A stretch of 64,000 nucleotides of DNA from Phormidium sp. FACHB-1136. Its GTDB lineage: Bacteria > Cyanobacteriota > Cyanobacteriia > Phormidesmidales > Phormidesmidaceae. Position 1 is the first letter of the stretch, and each line of letters opens with the position of its first letter. The notes beneath the pieces were generated by a model. That model worked only from the letters and a program-made list of their open reading frames with translations, was not told the origin of the DNA and did no database searches. The stretch is taken from NCBI RefSeq assembly GCF_014697375.1, contig NZ_JACJRS010000008.1:1-64000 (forward strand), given 5' to 3'. The position numbers and the translations under genes are program-made. Below, piece by piece: positions 26,297-43,804 of this stretch.

Positions 26297-27016
26297 ATGG
26301 CGGAGGCCAAAATCCTGGTTGTTGACGACGATCCTGCCATTCGCAACTTGATTTACCGCTTTTTGGCGAAGCAGAACTACACGATGGAGGCCGCTGAGGA
26401 CGGGAAAAAGGCGCTGGCGCTGTTTGAGCAGTTTACCCCCGACCTGGTCATTCTAGACGTGAACCTACCCGACACCAACGGCTACGACCTCTGCAAGGAG
26501 ATGCAGTCGCGCACGGGGGTGTTTGTGCTGATGCTAACCAGTCGCACCGACGAAGCGGACAAAATTCGTGGGTTTTCGGAGGGGGCCGACGACTACCTGA
26601 CCAAGCCCTTTAGCCTGCTGGAATTGGAGGTGCGGGTGGGGGCCATCCTCAAGCGCCAACGTCCGGTCACCAATGCCGAACAGCAGTGTCTCACCTTTAA
26701 TCGCCTGGTGATCGACCCGGTGCGGCGGGAGGTGATGCTGCGGGATGAGATGGTGCCCCTGACCGCCCTGGAGTTTGACCTGTTGCACTTTTTGGCCAGC
26801 CATCCGGGGCGGGTGTGGCGACGGGCCGAACTGATCCAAAAGGTGTGGGACTACGACTATGTGGGCGACCAGCGGGTGGTCGATGTCCATGTGGGCCAAA
26901 TCCGCAAAAAAATTGAGAAGGATACCAATGAGCCCGCCCTGATCCAAACGGTGCGGGGGGTGGGCTACAAATTCGAGCCCCCCGAGGGTGGCGGGGATGC
27001 CCAGGTTTCGGCCTAG
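26297..27016 (+). CDS. OmpR/PhoB-family response regulator
   Basis: The 239-residue protein has an N-terminal receiver (residues 1-120; acidic pair DDD at 10-12, phosphoacceptor Asp54 in VILDVN, and Lys in TKPFSLLE) and a C-terminal winged helix (about 135-232) ending with the motif VVDVHVGQIRKKIE and VRGVGYKFE. It is neither RpaA nor RpaB by its receiver sequence. No histidine kinase gene adjoins it, so it is an orphan. The next gene, hetZ, is convergent (22-bp gap). Target genes are unknown. Confidence 0.92.
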   Translation: MAEAKILVVDDDPAIRNLIYRFLAKQNYTMEAAEDGKKALALFEQFTPDLVILDVNLPDTNGYDLCKEMQSRTGVFVLMLTSRTDEADKIRGFSEGADDYLTKPFSLLELEVRVGAILKRQRPVTNAEQQCLTFNRLVIDPVRREVMLRDEMVPLTALEFDLLHFLASHPGRVWRRAELIQKVWDYDYVGDQRVVDVHVGQIRKKIEKDTNEPALIQTVRGVGYKFEPPEGGGDAQVSA

Positions 27017-27037: not shown

Positions 27038-28273
27038 CTAGGGTTTATCCTCCGCCCGCGTTCCTTGGTTGCGATAGTCCCAGGCTCCCTTGAGCAATTT
27101 GCTCCAGGTGCGGTGGACTTTTTTGGGCGTCCAGCCTAGGGTTTGGGCAAGGTCGGCATCATCGGCTTGGCCTTGGCGGCGTTTGAGGTCAATCAACCGC
27201 CGTTGATCGGCGGGCAGACTGGCCAAAAAGCCCTGCCATTGATCCGGCGTCATCCCCAGGCTGGCCTCCAGGTTGGCCCCAAGCCACTGGTGGACCAAAT
27301 CCCACTCGTGCTGCTGGGAAAATTTTTCGACGTGGTACTTAAACCGCTGCTGTAGGTAGTCTCGCTGGCGGGGGGAAAGGCCCAGAATGTCGTCAATTTC
27401 GGCGGCGGAGCAATCCTCCAGCTTCAGCACCAAATAATCGATGCAGTCCGTCTGGTTTTGGGCTTTAAAGTAATCCACCAGGGCGTTAATCACCCGGTCT
27501 CGCATGACGGCTTCCCCCGGATCGTAGGCGTCGGTTTTGAGTTTTTCGCGAACCTGCTGCACCACGGAACTACGGGCATAGGTTTCCGCCTCCTCCAACT
27601 TCGCCCCCTCGCTCACCAGGCCCATATCCACGGCGGTTTCGGCGGGCTGACGACGGCTAAAGGCTTGGGCACGGAGCACAATCAACTGCTGGCTCTGGCG
27701 ACCGGGTAGGGCAATGCGGCGTTTGGCATACTGCTCGCTAAAGGCCATGTATTCCGCCAGTTCCAACTGGGTACGTGGCGTGTAGGTGGTGGGCAGATGG
27801 TGTTCCCGTCGAAAGGCATTCAGCACCTCGATGTAAAAGGTTTGCATGAAGTCTTCAATCAGGGCGTAGCGACCCTGGAAGCTGAGGTAGCTTTCCTTGG
27901 GGGCCACATGGCGATAGACGATGGCGCTGAGGCTGCTGTGGAGATCCACCCGCCCCTGGCGAGATCCCGCCTCGTAGTAGGTCAAGCATTTATCGACCCG
28001 GTGACGCACCAAGGCCTGCTGCCAGTGGTGCACATCTCCCGACGCCTGAATGCGGTCACTGCGATGGCAAATGCGATCCACCTCCGCCGCCAGCCGCGCC
28101 GCCACGCCCCCTAGCCCACCGGGCCGACGACCGAGGCGATTCTCAAAGAGCTGGTCAATGGCCTGGGTCAATGCCCCTAACTCCCCGCCCACTGGCTCAG
28201 GGGAGGAATGGGAGGGAGGGGGAGACCCTGGGGGAAATGCCGCCATAGTACAGCCAGTAGATGCAGTCTTCAT
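27038..28273 (-). CDS. hetZ: HetZ-family protein
   Basis: HetZ is a DNA-binding regulator required for early heterocyst differentiation in Anabaena; relatives also occur in filamentous species without heterocysts. The 411 residues show the family signature ARLAAEVDRICHRSDRIQAS, LHSSLSAIVYRHVAP, RYALIEDFMQTFYIEVLNAF, RRIALPGRQSQQLIVLRAQA and LGLSPRQRDYLQQRFKYHVE. The last looks like a sigma-like helix-turn-helix. The first 40 residues are Pro/Ser-rich and variable. In Anabaena hetZ is near patU3 and hetP; neither is seen here. Its role in this organism is not known. Confidence 0.85.
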   Translation of the reverse strand: MKTASTGCTMAAFPPGSPPPSHSSPEPVGGELGALTQAIDQLFENRLGRRPGGLGGVAARLAAEVDRICHRSDRIQASGDVHHWQQALVRHRVDKCLTYYEAGSRQGRVDLHSSLSAIVYRHVAPKESYLSFQGRYALIEDFMQTFYIEVLNAFRREHHLPTTYTPRTQLELAEYMAFSEQYAKRRIALPGRQSQQLIVLRAQAFSRRQPAETAVDMGLVSEGAKLEEAETYARSSVVQQVREKLKTDAYDPGEAVMRDRVINALVDYFKAQNQTDCIDYLVLKLEDCSAAEIDDILGLSPRQRDYLQQRFKYHVEKFSQQHEWDLVHQWLGANLEASLGMTPDQWQGFLASLPADQRRLIDLKRRQGQADDADLAQTLGWTPKKVHRTWSKLLKGAWDYRNQGTRAEDKP

Positions 28274-28865
28274 AGATACCCAATCCTAGCAACGACACCG
28301 AAAGGAGAACCATCCCGGCGAAAATTGCGCCGTGGTCATCTGTTCTATCAGCATCCTCAATCTGGCCCAGGGAATTTCGGCGGGCCTGTGTCAGTGATGA
28401 AATTGGCTTCCGGACGGCATCTCATCGACCCTGAATCGGTTTTTGTCCCTGGCCTTGGCCTCTTGCGCCCAACGTAACAACTTGTGAATGACCGGGCTCC
28501 GTAGCCTCCTCCGTGACCTAAGTAGATACGCTGGGTCATGGGGCTGTTTGTAACCAAGCCGTTACTACGGCCCGTCTGTAGCCCCGATTTTTCCCCTCGC
28601 CTCTCCGTATTACGGAAGCCTCCCTCCCTTCGCTGACGGTTATACCTAGGCCGTAGTAGCGAACGGCTGGGAAAAGGTGAGGATGGCAAAGCGGCCAGTG
28701 TCTCAGACAATGGGCATGGGCGGTCGCCCATTGTCTGGGACGGGGTGTCATAAACCTTTAAGTTTGCGCTGCATATTTTCCGTCAATATCGGGCAACTTA
28801 GAGATGGGCTGAGATTAAGGATGACCCGCACCGTACTGTCTGCACCGCATTTTACGAGGCTAACA
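28274..28865. other. Long leader before the receiver gene cluster
   Basis: No gene is supported. The segment is bounded by the hetZ start (minus strand) and the first receiver gene (plus strand), so it should contain both promoters. It contains the hairpin at 28701-28740. Confidence 0.5.
28701..28740 (+). promoter_or_regulatory. Stable hairpin in the 5' leader of the receiver gene cluster
   Basis: CAGACAATGGGC (28704-28715) and GCCCATTGTCTG (28726-28737) pair exactly, and a G-U plus two more pairs extend the stem to 15. The loop is 10 bases. It ends about 125 bp before the first ATG (28866). No T-run follows, so it may be an RNA-level control element or a protein-binding palindrome. Confidence 0.45.
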
Positions 28866-29555
28866 ATGACTAAAATTCTGGTAATTGAGGACGAAAAAGG
28901 GGTTCAAGATAATGTCATTGATATCCTCCAACTGGAAGGATTCAAGGTGATTTCGGCGGATAACGGCTTGTTGGGTGTGCTGATGGCGCGGGCCGAGCAG
29001 CCCAATTTGATTATCTGCGACATTATGATGCCCGAACTGGATGGCTACGGGGTGCTAGAACAACTGCGTCAGGATCCCACTACGGCCACCATTCCCTTCA
29101 TCTTTTTAACCGCCAAGGCCGAAACGGTGGATCTGCGTCAGGGGATGGAATCGGGGGCCGATGACTACTTAACCAAGCCCTTTACCCCTCTAGAACTGAG
29201 AAAAGCCGTTGCCGTTCGCTTGCAAAAGCAGGCTGTGATGATGGAAAAATACAATCAGGAGCGGGAGCGGGCCTTGAAGTATCAGCGAGAGGTACAGGAA
29301 CGACAAACCCTGATTGAAACCCAGGAGGACTTTCTGCGCAAGATCATTGTCGATTTGCGGGATCCCCTCTCCAATATCAACATTGCCATTCAACTCTTGG
29401 CCACTAGCGAGGATGAGGCGGTGCGGGAACGCTACCTGAATATTCTCAGGGAAGAATGTTCGCGGGAGATTATGATGCTAAACCAGATGTCCCAACTGCA
29501 AGACCTGATTTCTCCCAAGAACCTCAAACTCCTGAGCCAATTCAAGCTCATTTAA
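28866..29555 (+). CDS. Receiver protein with a histidine-kinase-like dimerisation stub (REC-DHp*)
   Basis: The 229-residue protein has a full receiver domain (1-120; phosphoacceptor Asp52 in LIICDIMMP; Lys104), a coiled coil (about 118-158) and a final 70-residue segment FLRKIIVDLRDPLSNINIAI and onward. That segment matches the HisKA dimerisation helix, but where kinases have SHELRTPL it has IVDLRDPL: the phosphoacceptor histidine is absent. The catalytic ATPase domain is also absent. It therefore cannot be a kinase. It may bind the dimerisation helices of the third gene's product. It is the first of three similar receiver genes on the same strand; the start at 28866 is the family start. Confidence 0.85.
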   Translation: MTKILVIEDEKGVQDNVIDILQLEGFKVISADNGLLGVLMARAEQPNLIICDIMMPELDGYGVLEQLRQDPTTATIPFIFLTAKAETVDLRQGMESGADDYLTKPFTPLELRKAVAVRLQKQAVMMEKYNQERERALKYQREVQERQTLIETQEDFLRKIIVDLRDPLSNINIAIQLLATSEDEAVRERYLNILREECSREIMMLNQMSQLQDLISPKNLKLLSQFKLI

Positions 29556-29607
29556 TCCGGGAGATCAATCCGTTGTTTGTATCGTTTGGTAACGCCCTAG
29601 AGGCTCC

Positions 29608-31338
29608 ATGACAAAAATTCTAATTATTGAAGATGAACCCTTCATCCGGGAAAATCTGGAGGATATTCTGAGCCTAGAGGGGTTTGAGACCTTGGCCGCC
29701 ACCGATGGCCTTGTGGGGATTCAACTGGCGCAGCAAGCCCTACCGGATTTGATCATTTGCGACATTATGATGCCCTACGGAGACGGCTATGACGTGATTA
29801 CCGCCCTGCGGGAAGTCCCCCAAACCGAAGCCATTCCGTTTATTTTCCTTACGGCCAAAGCCGACCGGGCCAGCCTCCGCCAGGGCATGACCCTAGGGGC
29901 GGACGACTACCTCACCAAACCCTTTACCCCCCAGGAGGTGCTGGAATCGGTGCGGGCGCGGCTGAGGAAAGCCACGGCCCAAACCCAGCTTTACCAAAGC
30001 CAAATCCACCATCTGTCTACCGAACTGGAATTTCACCGTGCCCACGATGCCCTCACGGGGTTGCCCAACCGGGTGGCCCTCGCCGCTTGCTTTCAAACCC
30101 TTATTACCCGCATCCGAGGAACGCAGCAACATCTTGCCCTGCTCTATTTCACCTTTGACCAGTTGGCCTCTATTCGAGCGGCCCTCGGATCCGATCTCAG
30201 TGTGGCCCTGGTGCAGCAGATTGGCCAACGGTTAACCGCTGCCTCCCAGGGCGGGGGCATGGCCTACATCAGCGATCACCAGTTCGCCATGGTGATGGGG
30301 CCAAGTCCTACCCTGTCCCAGGCCCAGACCTGGGCCGAGGCGGTGGCCCAGGTGTTCGATGCCCCCATTACCCTGGAGGATCACAATCTCTTTCTCATCC
30401 CCAAAATTGGGGTGGCGATCTATCCCCAGGATGGGGTCAGCTTCGACACGCTACTGCTGGAGGCGGAAATGGCCGCGACGGGGTTGCCAGAACAGGGAGA
30501 TCGGCCCGTCAGTTTCTATTCGACCGATTTACATCAGCAGGTGAAGTATCGCTTTTCCATGGAGGCCGACCTCCACCATGCCCTAGACCGCCAGGAGTTC
30601 CAGATCTACTACCAGCCCCAGATTGATCTCAAAACCCAAACCCTGGCGGGGGCCGAGGCGCTGATGCGATGGTTTCATCCGGTGCGGGGGAATATTTCTC
30701 CGGCCCACTTTATCCCCATTGCCGAGGCAACAGACCTGATGGTGCCCATCGGGGAATGGGTCTTGCGCACCGCCTGTGAACAGGTGCAGCGGTGGCCCCA
30801 CTACCCCACCAATGCCCTGATCTCCGTGAACCTTTCCCCACGGCAGTTTGCGGCCCCCGACCTACGGGAAACCATCACCCAGGTGTTGGCCCAAACGGGG
30901 CTGCCCCCCCATCGTCTGGAGTTGGAAATTACCGAAACGGTGCTGATGCAGGATACCAGTTTGGCCCAGCACCTCCTCCGAGATCTGAAGGACAGCGGCA
31001 TTCACATTGCCATTGATGATTTTGGGGTGGGCTATTCTTCGTTTCAATACCTCAGCCAGTTTGCCCTCAGTACCCTCAAAATTGATCGGTGCTTTGTGCA
31101 TCATTTGGCCTCTCGCCCTAAAAACCAGACCCTGGTCGCGGCCATGATTCAGATGGCCCATGATCTGGGGCTGAAGGTGGTGGCCGAAGGGGTAGAAACC
31201 GAAGCCGACCTGGCCTGTTTGCAGTCCATTGAGTGCGACATTGTCCAGGGCTACTGGTATAGCCCACCGCTCAGCGCCGAAGCCTTTGAACAGGGCTATG
31301 CGGCCACCCCATCGGCCACCCGACAGTCTTTGCGGTAG
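29608..31338 (+). CDS. Response regulator with degenerate GGDEF and intact EAL domain
   Basis: The 576-residue protein has a receiver (1-120; Asp52 in LIICDIMMP), a short coiled coil, a GGDEF-like domain (about 140-295) and an EAL domain (about 315-565). In the cyclase domain the GGDEF signature is replaced by SDHQF (222-226), so diguanylate cyclase activity is unlikely. The EAL domain keeps EAL (350-352), SVNLS, LEITET, DDFG (471-474) and AEGVE (526-530), so c-di-GMP phosphodiesterase activity is expected. It would lower c-di-GMP when its receiver is phosphorylated; the signal is unknown. It follows the first receiver gene by 52 bp. Confidence 0.92.
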   Translation: MTKILIIEDEPFIRENLEDILSLEGFETLAATDGLVGIQLAQQALPDLIICDIMMPYGDGYDVITALREVPQTEAIPFIFLTAKADRASLRQGMTLGADDYLTKPFTPQEVLESVRARLRKATAQTQLYQSQIHHLSTELEFHRAHDALTGLPNRVALAACFQTLITRIRGTQQHLALLYFTFDQLASIRAALGSDLSVALVQQIGQRLTAASQGGGMAYISDHQFAMVMGPSPTLSQAQTWAEAVAQVFDAPITLEDHNLFLIPKIGVAIYPQDGVSFDTLLLEAEMAATGLPEQGDRPVSFYSTDLHQQVKYRFSMEADLHHALDRQEFQIYYQPQIDLKTQTLAGAEALMRWFHPVRGNISPAHFIPIAEATDLMVPIGEWVLRTACEQVQRWPHYPTNALISVNLSPRQFAAPDLRETITQVLAQTGLPPHRLELEITETVLMQDTSLAQHLLRDLKDSGIHIAIDDFGVGYSSFQYLSQFALSTLKIDRCFVHHLASRPKNQTLVAAMIQMAHDLGLKVVAEGVETEADLACLQSIECDIVQGYWYSPPLSAEAFEQGYAATPSATRQSLR

Positions 31339-31504
31339 TTGGGCTGGCCATGGTTCCCCTATCCATCTCGGTGCTTGGGTCACGCTGTTCCTGGCGTTGG
31401 CCCCCGTCTAAACCCAACGCGAAACAACGTTCAACAGCGCGACCCCCAGCGCGACCCATCGATCTAAATTCCCTGTAGTGTTCCAATCAAGGACGACCCA
31501 CACC

Positions 31505-32635
31505 ATGAAAAAGATTTTAGTCATCGAAGATGATCTTCAGGTTCAAGACAATATCTACGACATTTTGAGCCTGGAGGATTTCTATACCGTCACCGCCTCA
31601 GACGGAGCCGAGGGGCTAGCCCTCGCTAAGGAGGAAAAGCCCGATCTGATCATCTGCGACATTATGATGCCCCAGATGGATGGCTATGCGGTGCTTGCCG
31701 CCCTGCGCGATGCTGAAGAAACGGCGGCTATTCCCTTTATCTTTCTTACCGCCAAGGCCGACCGGGCCGATCTGCGCCAGGGAATGGCCCTCGGAGCTGA
31801 TGACTACCTGACCAAACCCTTCACCCCCGATGAACTGCGTCAGGCCGTGGCCGCTCGCCTTGCCCGCCAAGAAAACCAGCAGCAACAAACCCAGCGCCAG
31901 GTGGATAAGCTGCGGGACACCATTTCCTACGCCCTGCCCTACGAACTCAACACCCCCCTAGTTGGCATTATCAATGGCGCACACCTGCTGCGCACGGGCT
32001 ACAGCACCATGGATAAGAAGGAAATTGAGGAACTCCTGGATGCCATTGAAACCTCCGGCAACAAACTCTACTCCCTCATTCAGAACTTCATTACCTACGC
32101 CGATCTGGAACTGGCTACCGCCAACCCCGAAACCGTCGAGAAACTGCGGCAGCGCACCGAACCCTGCCTCACCACCCCCATCATCCAAGCCGCCGCCCTG
32201 CAAAAGGCCAAGGAGGTCAACCGTCAGGCCGATCTTCAGCTTGAACTGGAGGATGCCTACGTTGCTATTTCCGACTGGCGGCTGAAAAAAGTAGTGCAAG
32301 AAATTGTGGATAATGCCTTTAAGTTTTCCCCCGCCGGGAACCCGGTTAAGGTGATTAGCCGCATTCAAGAGGCCCATCTGCATCTTTTTGTGATTGACCA
32401 AGGTCGGGGGATGGATGCAGATCAAGTTCGCGCCATTGGGGCCTATATGCAGTTCCATCGCCAGATCTACGAACGTCCCGGCAATGGTCTGGGCCTTGCC
32501 ATCGCCAAACTCACGATGGCCCTCTATGGCGGTGAACTCGACATCGAAAGCTTTGTGGGCCAGCAAACCACCGTCCGCATGACCCTCCCCATCGCCCAGG
32601 ATGTTGTCCATAGCAACGGCCATTCGGTGGCCTAG
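31505..32635 (+). CDS. Receiver-histidine-kinase hybrid with His-to-Tyr change at the phosphoacceptor site
   Basis: The 376-residue protein has a receiver (1-120; Asp52), a Gln-rich coiled coil (about 118-138), a HisKA-like helix pair and a HATPase domain (about 240-365). The usual dimerisation motif xPHELRTPL reads LPYELNTPL, with Tyr146 (codon TAC at 31940-31942) in place of the phosphorylated His. The ATP-binding domain looks intact: N-box QEIVDNAFKF, G1 DQGRGM and G2 GNGLGLAIA. It can probably bind ATP but not autophosphorylate. The ATG at 31505 is the family start. It is third in the receiver cluster, 166 bp after the EAL gene. The protein could act as an ATP-controlled scaffold. Confidence 0.9.
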   Translation: MKKILVIEDDLQVQDNIYDILSLEDFYTVTASDGAEGLALAKEEKPDLIICDIMMPQMDGYAVLAALRDAEETAAIPFIFLTAKADRADLRQGMALGADDYLTKPFTPDELRQAVAARLARQENQQQQTQRQVDKLRDTISYALPYELNTPLVGIINGAHLLRTGYSTMDKKEIEELLDAIETSGNKLYSLIQNFITYADLELATANPETVEKLRQRTEPCLTTPIIQAAALQKAKEVNRQADLQLELEDAYVAISDWRLKKVVQEIVDNAFKFSPAGNPVKVISRIQEAHLHLFVIDQGRGMDADQVRAIGAYMQFHRQIYERPGNGLGLAIAKLTMALYGGELDIESFVGQQTTVRMTLPIAQDVVHSNGHSVA

Positions 32636-32726: not shown

Positions 32727-34331
32727 CTAGGGTGCCCCGTTGGCGGTGTAGAGGCGTTCCCAGTGGGGTTCTGCAAAATTGGCCAGCCACTCCCGGACAT
32801 GGTAGGTGGCACGGCAGTCGTCTTCGTTGTAGCGCAGGATGGCATCGAGGTAGGTGCGGTCTCCGGTTTCGGCCCAGGCGTTGTACCAACAGATGGACTG
32901 GGCACCGTTGGCCCCTTCGTCGCGCCAGTCGAAGCCCATCCAGCGGGCAATGTGCTTCAGGGCGTAGCTTTCGATGGGGAGGGTAACCCCGTCCGTCACG
33001 CACTTGTGAATATCAAAAAAACGGCTGAGTAGCGTGTCGATGTGGCGATTGTGGGTGCCGTAGCGTTGGCCCAATTTGCGCACCGTCTGGGCTTCGTAGG
33101 GGCAAAAGTGGTAGACCGGGGAGTCAGGATAGGCATGTACTAGGTCGAGGAAGTCCTTCCAGGCCCGTCGTTCTTCGGCGTGGCTTTCCGCTAGCAGGGC
33201 ATGAAAGGTCTCTTCTCCGGTGAGGCGGTTGACCACGAGCACCCCGTGCAGGTAAATCAGGTTTTGGTCGGGGGCAGATTCAATGTCGAAAAATAGCTCA
33301 ATTTCCGCCTCCGGTAAGTCCTCTGGCCAGAGGGGGAACCCATGGGGGGATTGGGAATCGGTGCGGGGGATGGCGCGGTTGTCCATTAGGGCTTGGGCTT
33401 GGTGCACCAGCTTTTCGGCCACGGGTTCGCCAAAGCCAGGGAGGGGGGCGAGGTAGGCAGGCGACGTTTGGGCGAGGGTGGCGACGGTGGTGATGTGGTG
33501 CTGGCGCAGAAACTCGTAGCGGGCGGGGGTCACTCCGGGCAGCAGGGACAGGTGGCGCTGGGCCTTGGCCTCGCCATAGCAATGGCCAAACCAGTGGCAG
33601 AGGTCGCAGCGGCTATGGGAAATAAACAGTTCCGGGGTCTGGGGCGATCTGAGGTCTTGCAGGCAGTGGTTGAGGGTGTCTTGCAACTTGAGTACCAGCC
33701 GCCCCAAATCGATGGGATACCGCTGACCATCACGCAGGGCCAAGTAACTGTGCTCCGGCCACACCCCCTGCACCCGCGACAGCACGTAGGCATGGTAGGT
33801 CGCCACCACTTGATAATCTAGCTTGGGCTTTTTGCCGAGCTTAATGTCGATGGGGGCGTAGGTCCAGTCTCCCCAGCAAGACCAGCCCGGTTGTTTAATC
33901 AGCAGGTCGGGCTGGCTGACGAACTGCACCTCCGCCACCGGGGAGGGCATGACCAACACCGCCCGGTGAATGGTCTCTACCCCTTGGGCCATCAAGTCGC
34001 GGGTGGCCTTGGCTCCAGCGGCCCAGTCGCCTGGATTAAACGGGGGCCGATGGATGGGTTGAAAGTCTTGCAAGACCTCGTGCCGATGGTCGGTGCTGTC
34101 CTGGCGCAGCTTCAACAAATAGTCGGAGGGGGGATCCTGCTGGCTGGGATCGCCATAGATGTCTAAAAAGGCCCGCCGATGGCAGCGCTGATAGTGAAAC
34201 AGCATCTCATCGGTGAGCCAGCGAATGTAGGACTGGGATTGTGGCGCGATAGCCTCAGCCGGAAACCTCAGGGGGCTTCCGGAACGCCCCCCGGCATGGC
34301 TACGTGATGGCAGGGGGGCACTAGCAGACAA
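32727..34331 (-). CDS. TM0106-type RecB-like putative nuclease with C-terminal exonuclease-like domain
   Basis: The 534-residue protein belongs to the TM0106 family of RecB-like nucleases. Its N-terminal part (about 30-265) has PDLLIK and IDIKLGKK, the D...ExK-like core of PD-(D/E)xK enzymes, and a CDLCHWFGHC cysteine cluster (about residue 240-250) that could hold an Fe-S cluster or zinc. The C-terminal part (about 345-525) is an RNase-H-fold 3'-5' exonuclease-like domain (ELFFDIES, YNEDDCRAT). The first 40 residues are low-complexity, so the true start could be later. It is a stand-alone gene. A repair role is inferred. Confidence 0.85.
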   Translation of the reverse strand: MSASAPLPSRSHAGGRSGSPLRFPAEAIAPQSQSYIRWLTDEMLFHYQRCHRRAFLDIYGDPSQQDPPSDYLLKLRQDSTDHRHEVLQDFQPIHRPPFNPGDWAAGAKATRDLMAQGVETIHRAVLVMPSPVAEVQFVSQPDLLIKQPGWSCWGDWTYAPIDIKLGKKPKLDYQVVATYHAYVLSRVQGVWPEHSYLALRDGQRYPIDLGRLVLKLQDTLNHCLQDLRSPQTPELFISHSRCDLCHWFGHCYGEAKAQRHLSLLPGVTPARYEFLRQHHITTVATLAQTSPAYLAPLPGFGEPVAEKLVHQAQALMDNRAIPRTDSQSPHGFPLWPEDLPEAEIELFFDIESAPDQNLIYLHGVLVVNRLTGEETFHALLAESHAEERRAWKDFLDLVHAYPDSPVYHFCPYEAQTVRKLGQRYGTHNRHIDTLLSRFFDIHKCVTDGVTLPIESYALKHIARWMGFDWRDEGANGAQSICWYNAWAETGDRTYLDAILRYNEDDCRATYHVREWLANFAEPHWERLYTANGAP

Positions 34332-41473: not shown

Positions 41474-43804
41474 ATGCCGAGGCTTTTTCCTGGTAGTGCC
41501 GAACAAATTATTGCCAGATCAGTCCTGGATCCCCTGGGACTGTTCCTAGCGCAGTATGGTCAGCGTCAGGGCTTGAGCCTGATGACGGAGGCCGATTATC
41601 CGGTGGGGCCGTTGGGGCTGGATCAGTTTTGGGGATTGATTGGCCCATCTCTGGCAGTGGTGCTGGTGGTTGGCCCTGTGCAAGAAGATGCGGATCTTCG
41701 GGATTTGCCGCCGGATTCGGCCACACTTCAGCTTTTGATGGATCCAGATGGGATCCGAATCTTTCTGGAAGCGGTAGGTACGGCCCTAGACAATCCTGAA
41801 CAATGCGCCCAACTGGCCAGCTTGGGGAATCATCTTGGCCATGGGGATCCTGCTGCCCAGGCCCAGTTCATGCTGGATTGGTTGAACTTTTGCACGACGG
41901 CGATGCCGCCCACCTGCAAGCCCGTCCAGGATCGACTGGATCGCCAGCTAGAGCGGAGTTTGGTGCTGAACCAGGTGGTGACGAAAATTCAGGAGAGCCT
42001 AGATCTCTCGGTGATTTTGCAAACCACGGTGTCGGAGGTGCGCTATTTTCTCCAGGCGGATCGGCTGCTGATTTACCAATTTGCCCTACCCCAACAGGAG
42101 GTCGGAGCGGAGACCGATCAGACCATCGCGCTAGCCCCAGAGTCGGCACCGGGGGAATCTGTGCCGAAGGAATTCGCGACAGAGAAATCCATGTTGGGGG
42201 GATCCAGAGAAGACGAAAAGGCCAACCATCGAGGCGGATACATCACCTACGAGGCAAAGTCCAACGAAACCCTGTCCTCGGTGCTGCACTACACTGAAAA
42301 CTTCTGTTTTAGCCAGTCGCCCGCCTGTCAGGAGCGTTTTTTCTCTGGCCAAACCACGGTGGTGGATAACATCGATGACGCCTACGCTTCGGTGCCCTGT
42401 CTCCATGCCTTTCTGACCCAGGTGGGGGTAAAGTCTAAGATGGTTGTCCCAATTCTGGTGGGGCAACAGTTTTGGGGCTTGTTGATTGTCCATCAGTGCC
42501 AGCAGCAGCGCCATTGGGAAGCCTGGGAAATTGAGTTTTTGGGCCACATTGCCGAGCACCTGGCCATCGCCATCAACCAGGCCCAGCTTTACCAGCAGCT
42601 TCAGCAGCAAACCCAAAATCTAGAGGTCTGCGTGATTGAGCGCACCCAGGATTTGCGAGATGCCCTGGCGGCGGCTCAAGCGGCGAACCGAGCCAAGAGC
42701 GACTTTTTGGCCACCATGAGCCACGAGCTACGCACCCCCCTCACCTACATCATTGGCATGTCTGCGACCCTACTGCGCTGGTCGTTGGGGGATTTGAGCG
42801 AACGCCAGCGAGACTATCTCAATACCATCCACACCAGCGGCGAACACCTGTTGGCGGTCATCAACGACATTTTGGAGGTGTCCAAAATCGAGTCGGGCCG
42901 CACCGCCCTAGAGGTGCGTGAATTTTCCCTCACCTCCCTCAGTCGCCAAAGTGTGGATGCCTTTCGGGCCGAAGCCGCCAAAAATGACCTGGATGTGGTG
43001 CTTGACCTCAAGATTGCCCCCGATCAGGATAGCTTTGTGGCCGATCCGCGTCGGGTGCGGCAAATCCTCAGCAACCTGATCAGCAATGCCGTGAAGTTTA
43101 CCCCAGCGGCGGGCAAGGTCACGCTGCGGGTGCGGCGGGAGCAAAATGTGGCGGTGTTTGACATTAGCGATACGGGCATCGGCATCCCGGAATCGGCTCA
43201 ATCCTTGCTGTTTGAGAAATTTCAGCAGTTGGAAAATGTTCGCCAGCGGGAATACCAAGGCACGGGCCTAGGGCTGGCCCTAACCAAACAACTGGTGGAT
43301 CTTCACGGCGGGTCGATCAAAGTGGTGTCGAAGGTGGGGGTGGGGTCTCTCTTCAGCGTGCGTATTCCCCTCCAGCGCAGCGACAGCGCCCTCCCCCCCC
43401 CCAGCGCCCCTGAGGTAGAACCCGTCGTCGGTCGTATTGTACTAGTGGAAGACAACGAAGAAAACGCCAGCATCATCTGCGATATGCTCACCGCCGCCGA
43501 CTACCAGGTGATCTGGATTGTGGACGGGTCGCGGGTGTTGGATCAGGTGGAACTCCTCCAGCCCGCCGCCGTCATCATTAACTTGAATTTGGCCAGCGCC
43601 AACAGCTACGACATCATCACCGCCCTAGGCCAGACCCTAGGCCACCGGGGGGTGAAAATCCTGGCCCTCGTCAACGGAGCCTCCTCCGACCAAGCCCAAC
43701 GGGCACAGCAGGCCGGAGCCCACGATACCCTGCCGCACCCCGTTAACCCCAAGCAGTTGCTCACTGCCGTCTACCACCTCATGCGCCATCCGGCCCTGGG
43801 GTAG
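41474..43804 (+). CDS. Hybrid sensor histidine kinase with GAF domain and degenerate receiver
   Basis: The 776-residue protein has a unique N-terminal region (1-160), a GAF domain (about 165-370), a coiled coil, a HisKA domain with phosphoacceptor His417 (TMSHELRTPLTYI), a HATPase domain (about 520-640; GTGLGLALT G2 box) and a C-terminal receiver-like domain (about 655-770). In the GAF, Cys309 in VPCLHAF is spaced exactly as the bilin-attaching Cys of phytochrome and cyanobacteriochrome GAFs, but the following His is Leu. The receiver has Asn in place of the phosphoacceptor (AAVIINLNLAS), so it cannot be phosphorylated there. Within the GAF a polar insert (about 205-250) is unusual. The kinase core should be active. 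Confidence 0.9.
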   Translation: MPRLFPGSAEQIIARSVLDPLGLFLAQYGQRQGLSLMTEADYPVGPLGLDQFWGLIGPSLAVVLVVGPVQEDADLRDLPPDSATLQLLMDPDGIRIFLEAVGTALDNPEQCAQLASLGNHLGHGDPAAQAQFMLDWLNFCTTAMPPTCKPVQDRLDRQLERSLVLNQVVTKIQESLDLSVILQTTVSEVRYFLQADRLLIYQFALPQQEVGAETDQTIALAPESAPGESVPKEFATEKSMLGGSREDEKANHRGGYITYEAKSNETLSSVLHYTENFCFSQSPACQERFFSGQTTVVDNIDDAYASVPCLHAFLTQVGVKSKMVVPILVGQQFWGLLIVHQCQQQRHWEAWEIEFLGHIAEHLAIAINQAQLYQQLQQQTQNLEVCVIERTQDLRDALAAAQAANRAKSDFLATMSHELRTPLTYIIGMSATLLRWSLGDLSERQRDYLNTIHTSGEHLLAVINDILEVSKIESGRTALEVREFSLTSLSRQSVDAFRAEAAKNDLDVVLDLKIAPDQDSFVADPRRVRQILSNLISNAVKFTPAAGKVTLRVRREQNVAVFDISDTGIGIPESAQSLLFEKFQQLENVRQREYQGTGLGLALTKQLVDLHGGSIKVVSKVGVGSLFSVRIPLQRSDSALPPPSAPEVEPVVGRIVLVEDNEENASIICDMLTAADYQVIWIVDGSRVLDQVELLQPAAVIINLNLASANSYDIITALGQTLGHRGVKILALVNGASSDQAQRAQQAGAHDTLPHPVNPKQLLTAVYHLMRHPALG

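Follow-up and report, generated by a model that had tools for sequence, protein, structure and literature searches.

Whether three neighbouring receiver genes with degenerate output domains and no kinase beside them still act as one signalling unit is the question raised by a locus of Phormidium sp. FACHB-1136. The window, meaning the whole stretch of 64,000 nucleotides that was analysed (contig NZ_JACJRS010000008.1, positions 1–64,000), carries the intact genes A (28866–29555), B (29608–31338) and C (31505–32635) on the plus strand, separated by 52 bases (A–B) and 166 bases (B–C). The positions, strand and lengths of the products (229, 576 and 376 residues) in a preliminary description of this DNA are correct, and so is its statement that no kinase gene adjoins them. 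The nearest kinase seen, a hybrid one, is encoded at 41474, 9 kb from the unit, and the adjacent cognate kinase expected of a two-component operon is absent. We incline to the view that A, B and C are the orphaned receiver half of a set in which one kinase serves many receivers, comprising a cyclic di-GMP (c-di-GMP) phosphodiesterase and two phosphotransfer-free switches resembling LvrB and DivL. The genome containing the window (G000; 5.98 Mb, 260 contigs) was compared with two congeners, G014 and G021, and with other cyanobacteria.

Likeness of the three receivers

The phosphoacceptor Asp52 is present in all three receivers, and E8, D9, T82 and K104 are also kept. The receivers had been called near-identical; the motifs quoted for them are indeed shared, but the identity is just 59% for A–B, 65% for A–C and 64% for B–C. 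Among 75 matches in the genome to the receiver of C, those of A and B are the best after C itself, at 65% each, followed by receivers on contigs C184 (57%) and C224 (56%), with the remainder at 45% or lower. The likeness is not due to chance, because A and B are the top two of the 75.

Receivers that diverged long ago and have since evolved each on its own should match their operon mates no better than they match the same types elsewhere. This was examined at two sets of kinase-docking positions. The wider set was fixed before its test from interface positions of Spo0F and OmpR. At these positions the identity within loci exceeded that between loci for A–B (71.6% vs 58.4%, 8 loci), A–C (69.5% vs 58.7%, 7 loci) and B–C (68.1% vs 60.3%, 8 loci), with p≤0.0014 upon permutation within linked loci. 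Left out of this test were the two congeners, G014 and G021, along with seven receivers of distant Rec-kinases.

The narrow set was picked after the result of the wider set was known and before its own first scoring. Among 144 receivers, linked pairs of different types were 69.3% identical at the narrow docking sites (n=24), compared with 47.4% for unlinked pairs of the same genome (n=42) and 47.0% for pairs from different genomes (n=6290). The three pairs of the window reached 79, 86 and 79%. The same two congeners, and Rec-kinases without the dimerization and histidine phosphotransfer (DHp) pattern of the C type, were dropped here, and both tests assume independent pairs, whereas certain pairs come from one locus or genome. 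Helix 1 and the β5–α5 loop are supported as specificity sites of receivers in the available part of an earlier report (PMC2991266). The likeness of the docking faces of operon receivers points to a shared kinase, and the earlier proposal that one distant kinase might phosphorylate all three receivers fits this sequence-based result.

Output domains and their families

Protein A consists of a receiver (residues 1–122), a long helix and a DHp-like hairpin, as read from the open reading frame, Pfam and a structural model. It had been described as a HisKA-like stub without the His or the ATPase domain, and this is borne out. HisKA scores 17.6 bits, below the gathering score of PF00512 (26.9 bits), no HATPase match is seen, and in the alignment Val162 (codon 29349–29351, plus strand) stands in the column of the phosphoacceptor His. 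The helical hairpin is still predicted; the model, with a mean predicted local distance difference test score (pLDDT) of 87, contains the receiver, a single 73-residue helix and the hairpin. A search of the PDB with this model returned mostly receivers.

In 57 rows of the A family the His column holds Q in 30, E in 11, H in 3, D in 3, other residues in 9 and a gap in 1. A non-His residue is thus found in 53 of the 57, and absence of the His is a trait of the A family, although the rows include near-duplicates (L114/L116/L143/L145, L128/L147 and L135/L148, where L numbers are our labels for loci). A role for A as a phosphotransfer protein is ruled out, since it has no His, as is the case for all but three of the family rows. 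A phosphatase role is not argued; positions +1 and +4 are both D, and the residue at +4 is not constant among relatives. In 34 of 37 A-family rows, which are related and not independent, K104 and the His column lie 58, 65 or 51 residues apart, and a linker in heptad register is present in 48 of the 56 rows of a larger set. A linker whose length changes by sevens is as expected of a coiled coil. At loci L100, L107, L109, L112 and L149, A lies in tandem with or near His-keeping paralogues of C (C2) composed of receiver, DHp and catalytic ATP-binding domains (Rec-DHp-CA). A may derive from such a C2-type gene through loss of the ATPase domain.

Protein C has a receiver, DHp helices and HATPase_c, the Rec-DHp-CA layout of LvrB. 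As had been noted, Tyr146 (codon 31940–31942, plus strand) replaces the phosphoacceptor His in the alignment and the N- and G-boxes are present; HisKA scores 28.6 bits and HATPase_c 71.7 bits. Forty-five C-family rows of at least 39% identity, the window included, have H (28), R (11), Y (3), Q (2) or D (1) at the His column, so that the His is replaced in 17. D52, E266, N270, G300, G328 and G330, the last five being residues of the ATP site, occur in all 45. Tyr at this column is confined, in the 45-row set, to the window, G014 and G021. On the family tree the His label changes at least 5 times, with 4–6 changes in bootstraps and 2 required by the well-supported branches alone. DHp-like helices are predicted in the model of C (pLDDT 85), whose best PDB match by E-value is LvrB (8vc9), with DivL (4q20) at rank 17; a PDB search with the sequence of C gave mostly receivers.

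Protein B has a receiver, a degenerate GGDEF domain and an EAL domain (Pfam). The preliminary description was accurate in that SDHQF (residues 222–226, nt 30271–30285, plus strand) stands where GG(D/E)EF is expected; the EAL motifs are intact. The active site of a diguanylate cyclase is therefore missing. The EAL motif is present together with what we take to be the metal-binding and catalytic residues (E, N, E, DD, K, E), as in a c-di-GMP phosphodiesterase. None of 30 B-family rows with a GGDEF domain (14 and 16 rows in two sets) has GG(D/E)EF, and nine further rows are REC-EAL proteins without GGDEF. Intact EAL motifs are seen in the window and in the majority of B-family rows; exceptions in the first of the two sets are L115, L122 (cut), L151, L152, L157 and L189. 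B is probably a c-di-GMP phosphodiesterase, judging from these motifs. SDHQF is found in both the window and G014, and the GGDEF part is 51% identical between G000 and G014. In G021, B is a 108-residue remnant in which the start of the receiver is joined to part of the EAL domain, while A and C persist; G021 is a draft of about 660 contigs, and the remnant may be an assembly error. B looks dispensable.

Gene order in related cyanobacteria

The same gene order was sought in other cyanobacterial genomes, and the genes do stay together elsewhere. G014 has the order D-E-A-B-C of the window, D and E being the genes upstream of A, with identities of 92, 82, 84, 61 and 85%, and G021 has E-A-(B remnant)-C. 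No kinase adjoins the unit in the window, G014 or G021 (L033 and L034 for the congeners). Beyond the genus, Oscillatoria princeps RMCB-10 has a histidine kinase (HK) in the order HK-RecHK-A-B-C and the uncultured Oscillatoriales KTt_bin-1839 has HK-A-B-C. Partial sets are found as A-B in Oscillatoriaceae M7585, HK-A-B in G198 and G311 (B of G311 being incomplete at the edge of the fetched stretch), HK-A-C in Iningainema tapete, HK-B-C in G054 and HK-(REC-EAL)-C in Mastigocoleus and Nostoc spongiaeforme. A homologue of A with 50% identity lies at another site in G011, with a kinase upstream. The next upstream gene on the same strand encodes a REC-less kinase in 30 of 56 A-family loci, and an ATPase-domain protein of some kind in 37 of 56; in many relatives a sensor kinase gene precedes the C-family gene. 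Of the best 80 loci kept, the full-length A-family ones that bear a name are all labelled cyanobacteria. C-like genes were also seen at L217 and L180, on contigs labelled Candidatus Gracilibacteria and Anaerolinea, by mis-binning or transfer.

Pairs of the genes were counted in 291 sampled genomes of the class, the window genome and G014 included, among the matches listed (150 each for B and C, and 73 full-length A stub rows hand-picked from a longer list). The two genes lie within 6 kb of each other in 5 of the 44 genomes in which A and B are both listed (expectation 0.15), in 7 of 21 for A and C (expectation 0.09) and in 9 of 70 for B and C (expectation 0.31). Co-location of A, B and C exceeds chance, though only a minority of genomes show it. 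The unit, put forward earlier as a candidate undescribed one, is no novelty of this locus but one instance, lacking a kinase, of a gene set more widespread in cyanobacteria.

Linked kinases and candidate donors

A domain scan of seven kinases with a linked gene of the A, B or C family found PAS in 7, CBS in 4, GAF in 4, HisKA in 6 and HisKA_2 in 1 (Oscillatoria princeps), and a REC domain in none of them. One DHp type, SHEFRTPL, is common to the transmitters of five linked kinases, as read by eye. In Oscillatoria princeps, the Rec-kinase encoded between the first kinase and A carries SHEFRNPL, also a DHp of the SHEFR type.

The kinases of this DHp type in G000 match at 57% (contig C224), 46% (contig C184) and at most 41% (others). 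Docking identity to A, B and C was compared for 23 other receivers of G000, all but four of the 30 fetched receiver loci having been taken in. The C224 receiver is the best, with 71, 64 and 64% identity to the three of the window, and none of the others exceeds 50%. The C224 kinase is not claimed as the donor, even as the best docking match in G000, for this type was not found in G014. Nor is the PAS-kinase of C184 claimed; its type occurs in all three genomes with the unit, but the docking identity of its partner receiver to A, B and C is 29–36%. The C224 locus itself (L044, 8090–11902) encodes a CBS-GAF-PAS kinase followed by an Arg-type paralogue of C, and Arg-type paralogues of C behind a kinase also occur in members of the genus and family (L047–L052 and L056).

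Proposed mechanism and alternatives

A single histidine kinase encoded elsewhere would phosphorylate Asp52 of each receiver through the docking face common to all three. Phosphorylation of B would alter its EAL activity and, given the intact motifs, could hence lower c-di-GMP. Phosphorylation of A and C may re-arrange the receiver dimer and the coiled-coil helix, by analogy with LvrB of Leptospira. Because the His is gone, such switching in A and C cannot end in His phosphorylation. A would then be a helical-bundle adaptor switched by phosphorylation, and C a putative ATP-binding pseudokinase like DivL, which would bind a partner kinase or regulator rather than phosphorylate it.

A broader reading is put forward only tentatively. 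Cyanobacteria may possess a class of Rec-controlled pseudokinases with non-phosphotransfer output, in which the DHp His has been lost repeatedly and the receiver and ATP site are fixed. Family A would be its sister without the ATPase domain, keeping the heptad-spaced helix, and one kinase might act side by side on a c-di-GMP phosphodiesterase, a pseudokinase gated by ATP and a mechanical switch made of a receiver, a coiled coil and a bundle. The locus itself offers a testable rule: receivers sharing an operon share a kinase-docking face, so that sequence might suffice to assign a kinase to an orphan set of receivers. The natural series at one site (His, Tyr, Arg, Gln and Asp, with the ATP site constant) bears on what a histidine-kinase core does when its usual His is unavailable.

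Several observations weigh against orphaned receivers served by one distant kinase. The rest of the receiver is also closer within loci, by 2–4 points (p 0.02, 0.02 and 0.0004), and the linked pairs of L102, L112 and L122 are only 36–43% identical at the narrow docking sites. The complete A-B-C order is found beyond the genus in only two genomes, linked pairs occur in a minority of genomes, and A at ≥84% identity is present in only 3 of 26 genomes of the genus. The first kinase at the Oscillatoria princeps locus belongs to another class, HisKA_2. Neither the C224-type receiver nor its kinase was found in G014, though G014 keeps the whole unit, and the closest G014 kinase of the linked DHp type is of the C184 type, a type whose partner in G000 is a receiver with another docking face. 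The overall TM-score between C and LvrB is only 0.34–0.35, with the domains oriented differently.

The closeness of linked receivers outside the docking face (63.6% vs 56.3%), together with the grouping of some pairs by locus in the receiver tree, would be explained if their likeness came from tandem duplication or gene conversion, the co-location being accidental and no kinase shared. We regard this as very improbable, since the excess identity is greatest at the docking residues and co-location is above random expectation for all three kinds of pair. Four-fold sites differ at 316 of 507 (0.62) in 15 linked pairs and 227 of 356 (0.64) in 12 unlinked pairs, hand-chosen from the 24 and 42. Recent conversion is not the cause, because these sites are equally saturated in the two groups. 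It is also unlikely that C and A are helpers of an intact kinase, their DHp helices forming mixed dimers with or titrating a kinase that bears the His, with use of C's ATP site in trans. In favour are the invariance of the five ATP-site residues of C despite a dispensable His, the DHp-like helices predicted for A as well as C, and the His-keeping Rec-DHp-CA paralogues that adjoin the A-family genes at L107 and L109. However, the DHp domains of A, C and the linked kinases are different subtypes, which argues against free mixing.

That the locus is a relic, its kinase lost, A, B and C drifting to loss and the His and GGDEF changes being decay, seems quite unlikely to us. The ratio of nonsynonymous to synonymous differences (pN/pS) among G000, G014 and G021 is 0.12–0.13 for A and 0.16–0.25 for C, close to that of the neighbouring gene E (0.16–0.20; D, 0.10), the values being rough with pS at 0.46–0.72, near saturation. 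B evolves fast (pN/pS 0.41 for G000–G014), which together with its diverged GGDEF part, the remnant in G021, the rarity of A in the genus and the lack of an adjacent kinase in all three unit genomes speaks for a relic. Against it, the receivers are intact, the ATP-site residues are kept, Tyr146 is present in the window and both orthologues, and the loss of the His in the A family and of GGDEF in the B family is spread over many cyanobacterial families. Recent decay of all three genes is unsupported for A and C, considering their pN/pS and the conserved Tyr146 and D52. As to whether the changes reflect local decay or a conserved design, simple local decay does not fit the Tyr146 of the three genomes, the SDHQF shared with G014 or the low pN/pS of A and C; a design specific to this unit does not stand either, most degenerate features being family-wide.

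Flanking sequences

Gene E (27038–28273, minus strand) is HetZ-related, with 575 bits to NF037964 (cut-off 612), and adjoins gene D at 26297, which encodes an OmpR-type regulator. The D-E pair is kept in 23 of 25 genomes of the genus. A adjoins E in only 3 of the 25, and in 3 of the other 22 a contig end lies less than 400 bases from E. Two conserved blocks precede A on the plus strand. An 18-bp block (28674–28691) is identical in G000, G014 and G021 and is a possible regulatory element; a second block (28746–28760), with 13 of 15 positions identical in these genomes, could be a regulator site. Between E and A lies a 16-bp inverted repeat with a 10-bp loop (28700–28741), for which no counterpart was found in either G014 or G021. 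Scans for promoters and terminators yielded matches no more numerous than in shuffles. Downstream of C, the minus strand encodes a putative RecB-like nuclease of the TM0106 family (32727–34331; TIGR03491, 534 bits). The hybrid kinase gene at 41474–43804 encodes a transmitter and a receiver, with a GAF domain read by eye; its transmitter and that of the G198 linked kinase share 34% identity.

Comparison with known systems

The open-access literature yielded no account of this gene set, of a REC-DHp family lacking both His and ATPase, or of the His having been lost repeatedly among Rec-controlled kinases; this is no proof of absence. The statements below on published systems follow the available parts of the reports cited.

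B resembles the REC-GGDEF-EAL phosphodiesterase regulators of NCBIfam (DibA, PvrR and others) in having a receiver and an EAL domain with its motifs kept. Unlike them, it has no GG(D/E)EF, nor an I-site as judged by eye, and it scores far under their cut-offs. CdgK-CdgS of Anabaena PCC 7120 (PMC9927289) likewise unites, in a single cyanobacterial operon, a kinase with a receiver enzyme that acts in c-di-GMP turnover. It differs in that CdgS is a GGDEF cyclase fed by a phosphorelay from a hybrid kinase, and the available part of that report describes no receiver gene of the DHp-stub or pseudokinase kind.

C and LvrB of Leptospira have the same Rec-DHp-CA layout in one protein and the same length, and C has a phosphorylatable Asp, D52. 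LvrB keeps His161 and phosphorylates LvrC (PMC13269768, PMC5863495). C is not filed as a working LvrB-type member, because Tyr146 replaces the His. LvrA is a hybrid kinase (PMC13269768, PMC5863495), unlike the REC-less linked kinases scanned. Phosphorylation of the LvrB receiver makes the linker form a coiled coil and releases the ATPase domain (PMC13269768). In Rhodobacter, the receiver-like protein Osp inhibits a kinase by binding its transmitter (PMC9430884).

DivL of Caulobacter has Tyr550 in place of the His (PMC4211667), as C has Tyr at the phosphoacceptor position of its DHp-CA core, conserved in the window and both orthologues found. DivL has a PAS input ahead of its DHp and senses phosphorylated DivK in trans (PMC4211667), whereas C has its own receiver in that place; DivL binds ATP weakly (PMC4211667), whereas the C family shows no variation at the five ATP-site residues. 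DivL shows that a core with the His changed to Tyr can sense a phosphorylated receiver without kinase activity (PMC4211667). Hybrid response regulators, DivL and REC-EAL enzymes are all known kinds; the parts of this locus are ordinary, and it is their combination that is of interest.

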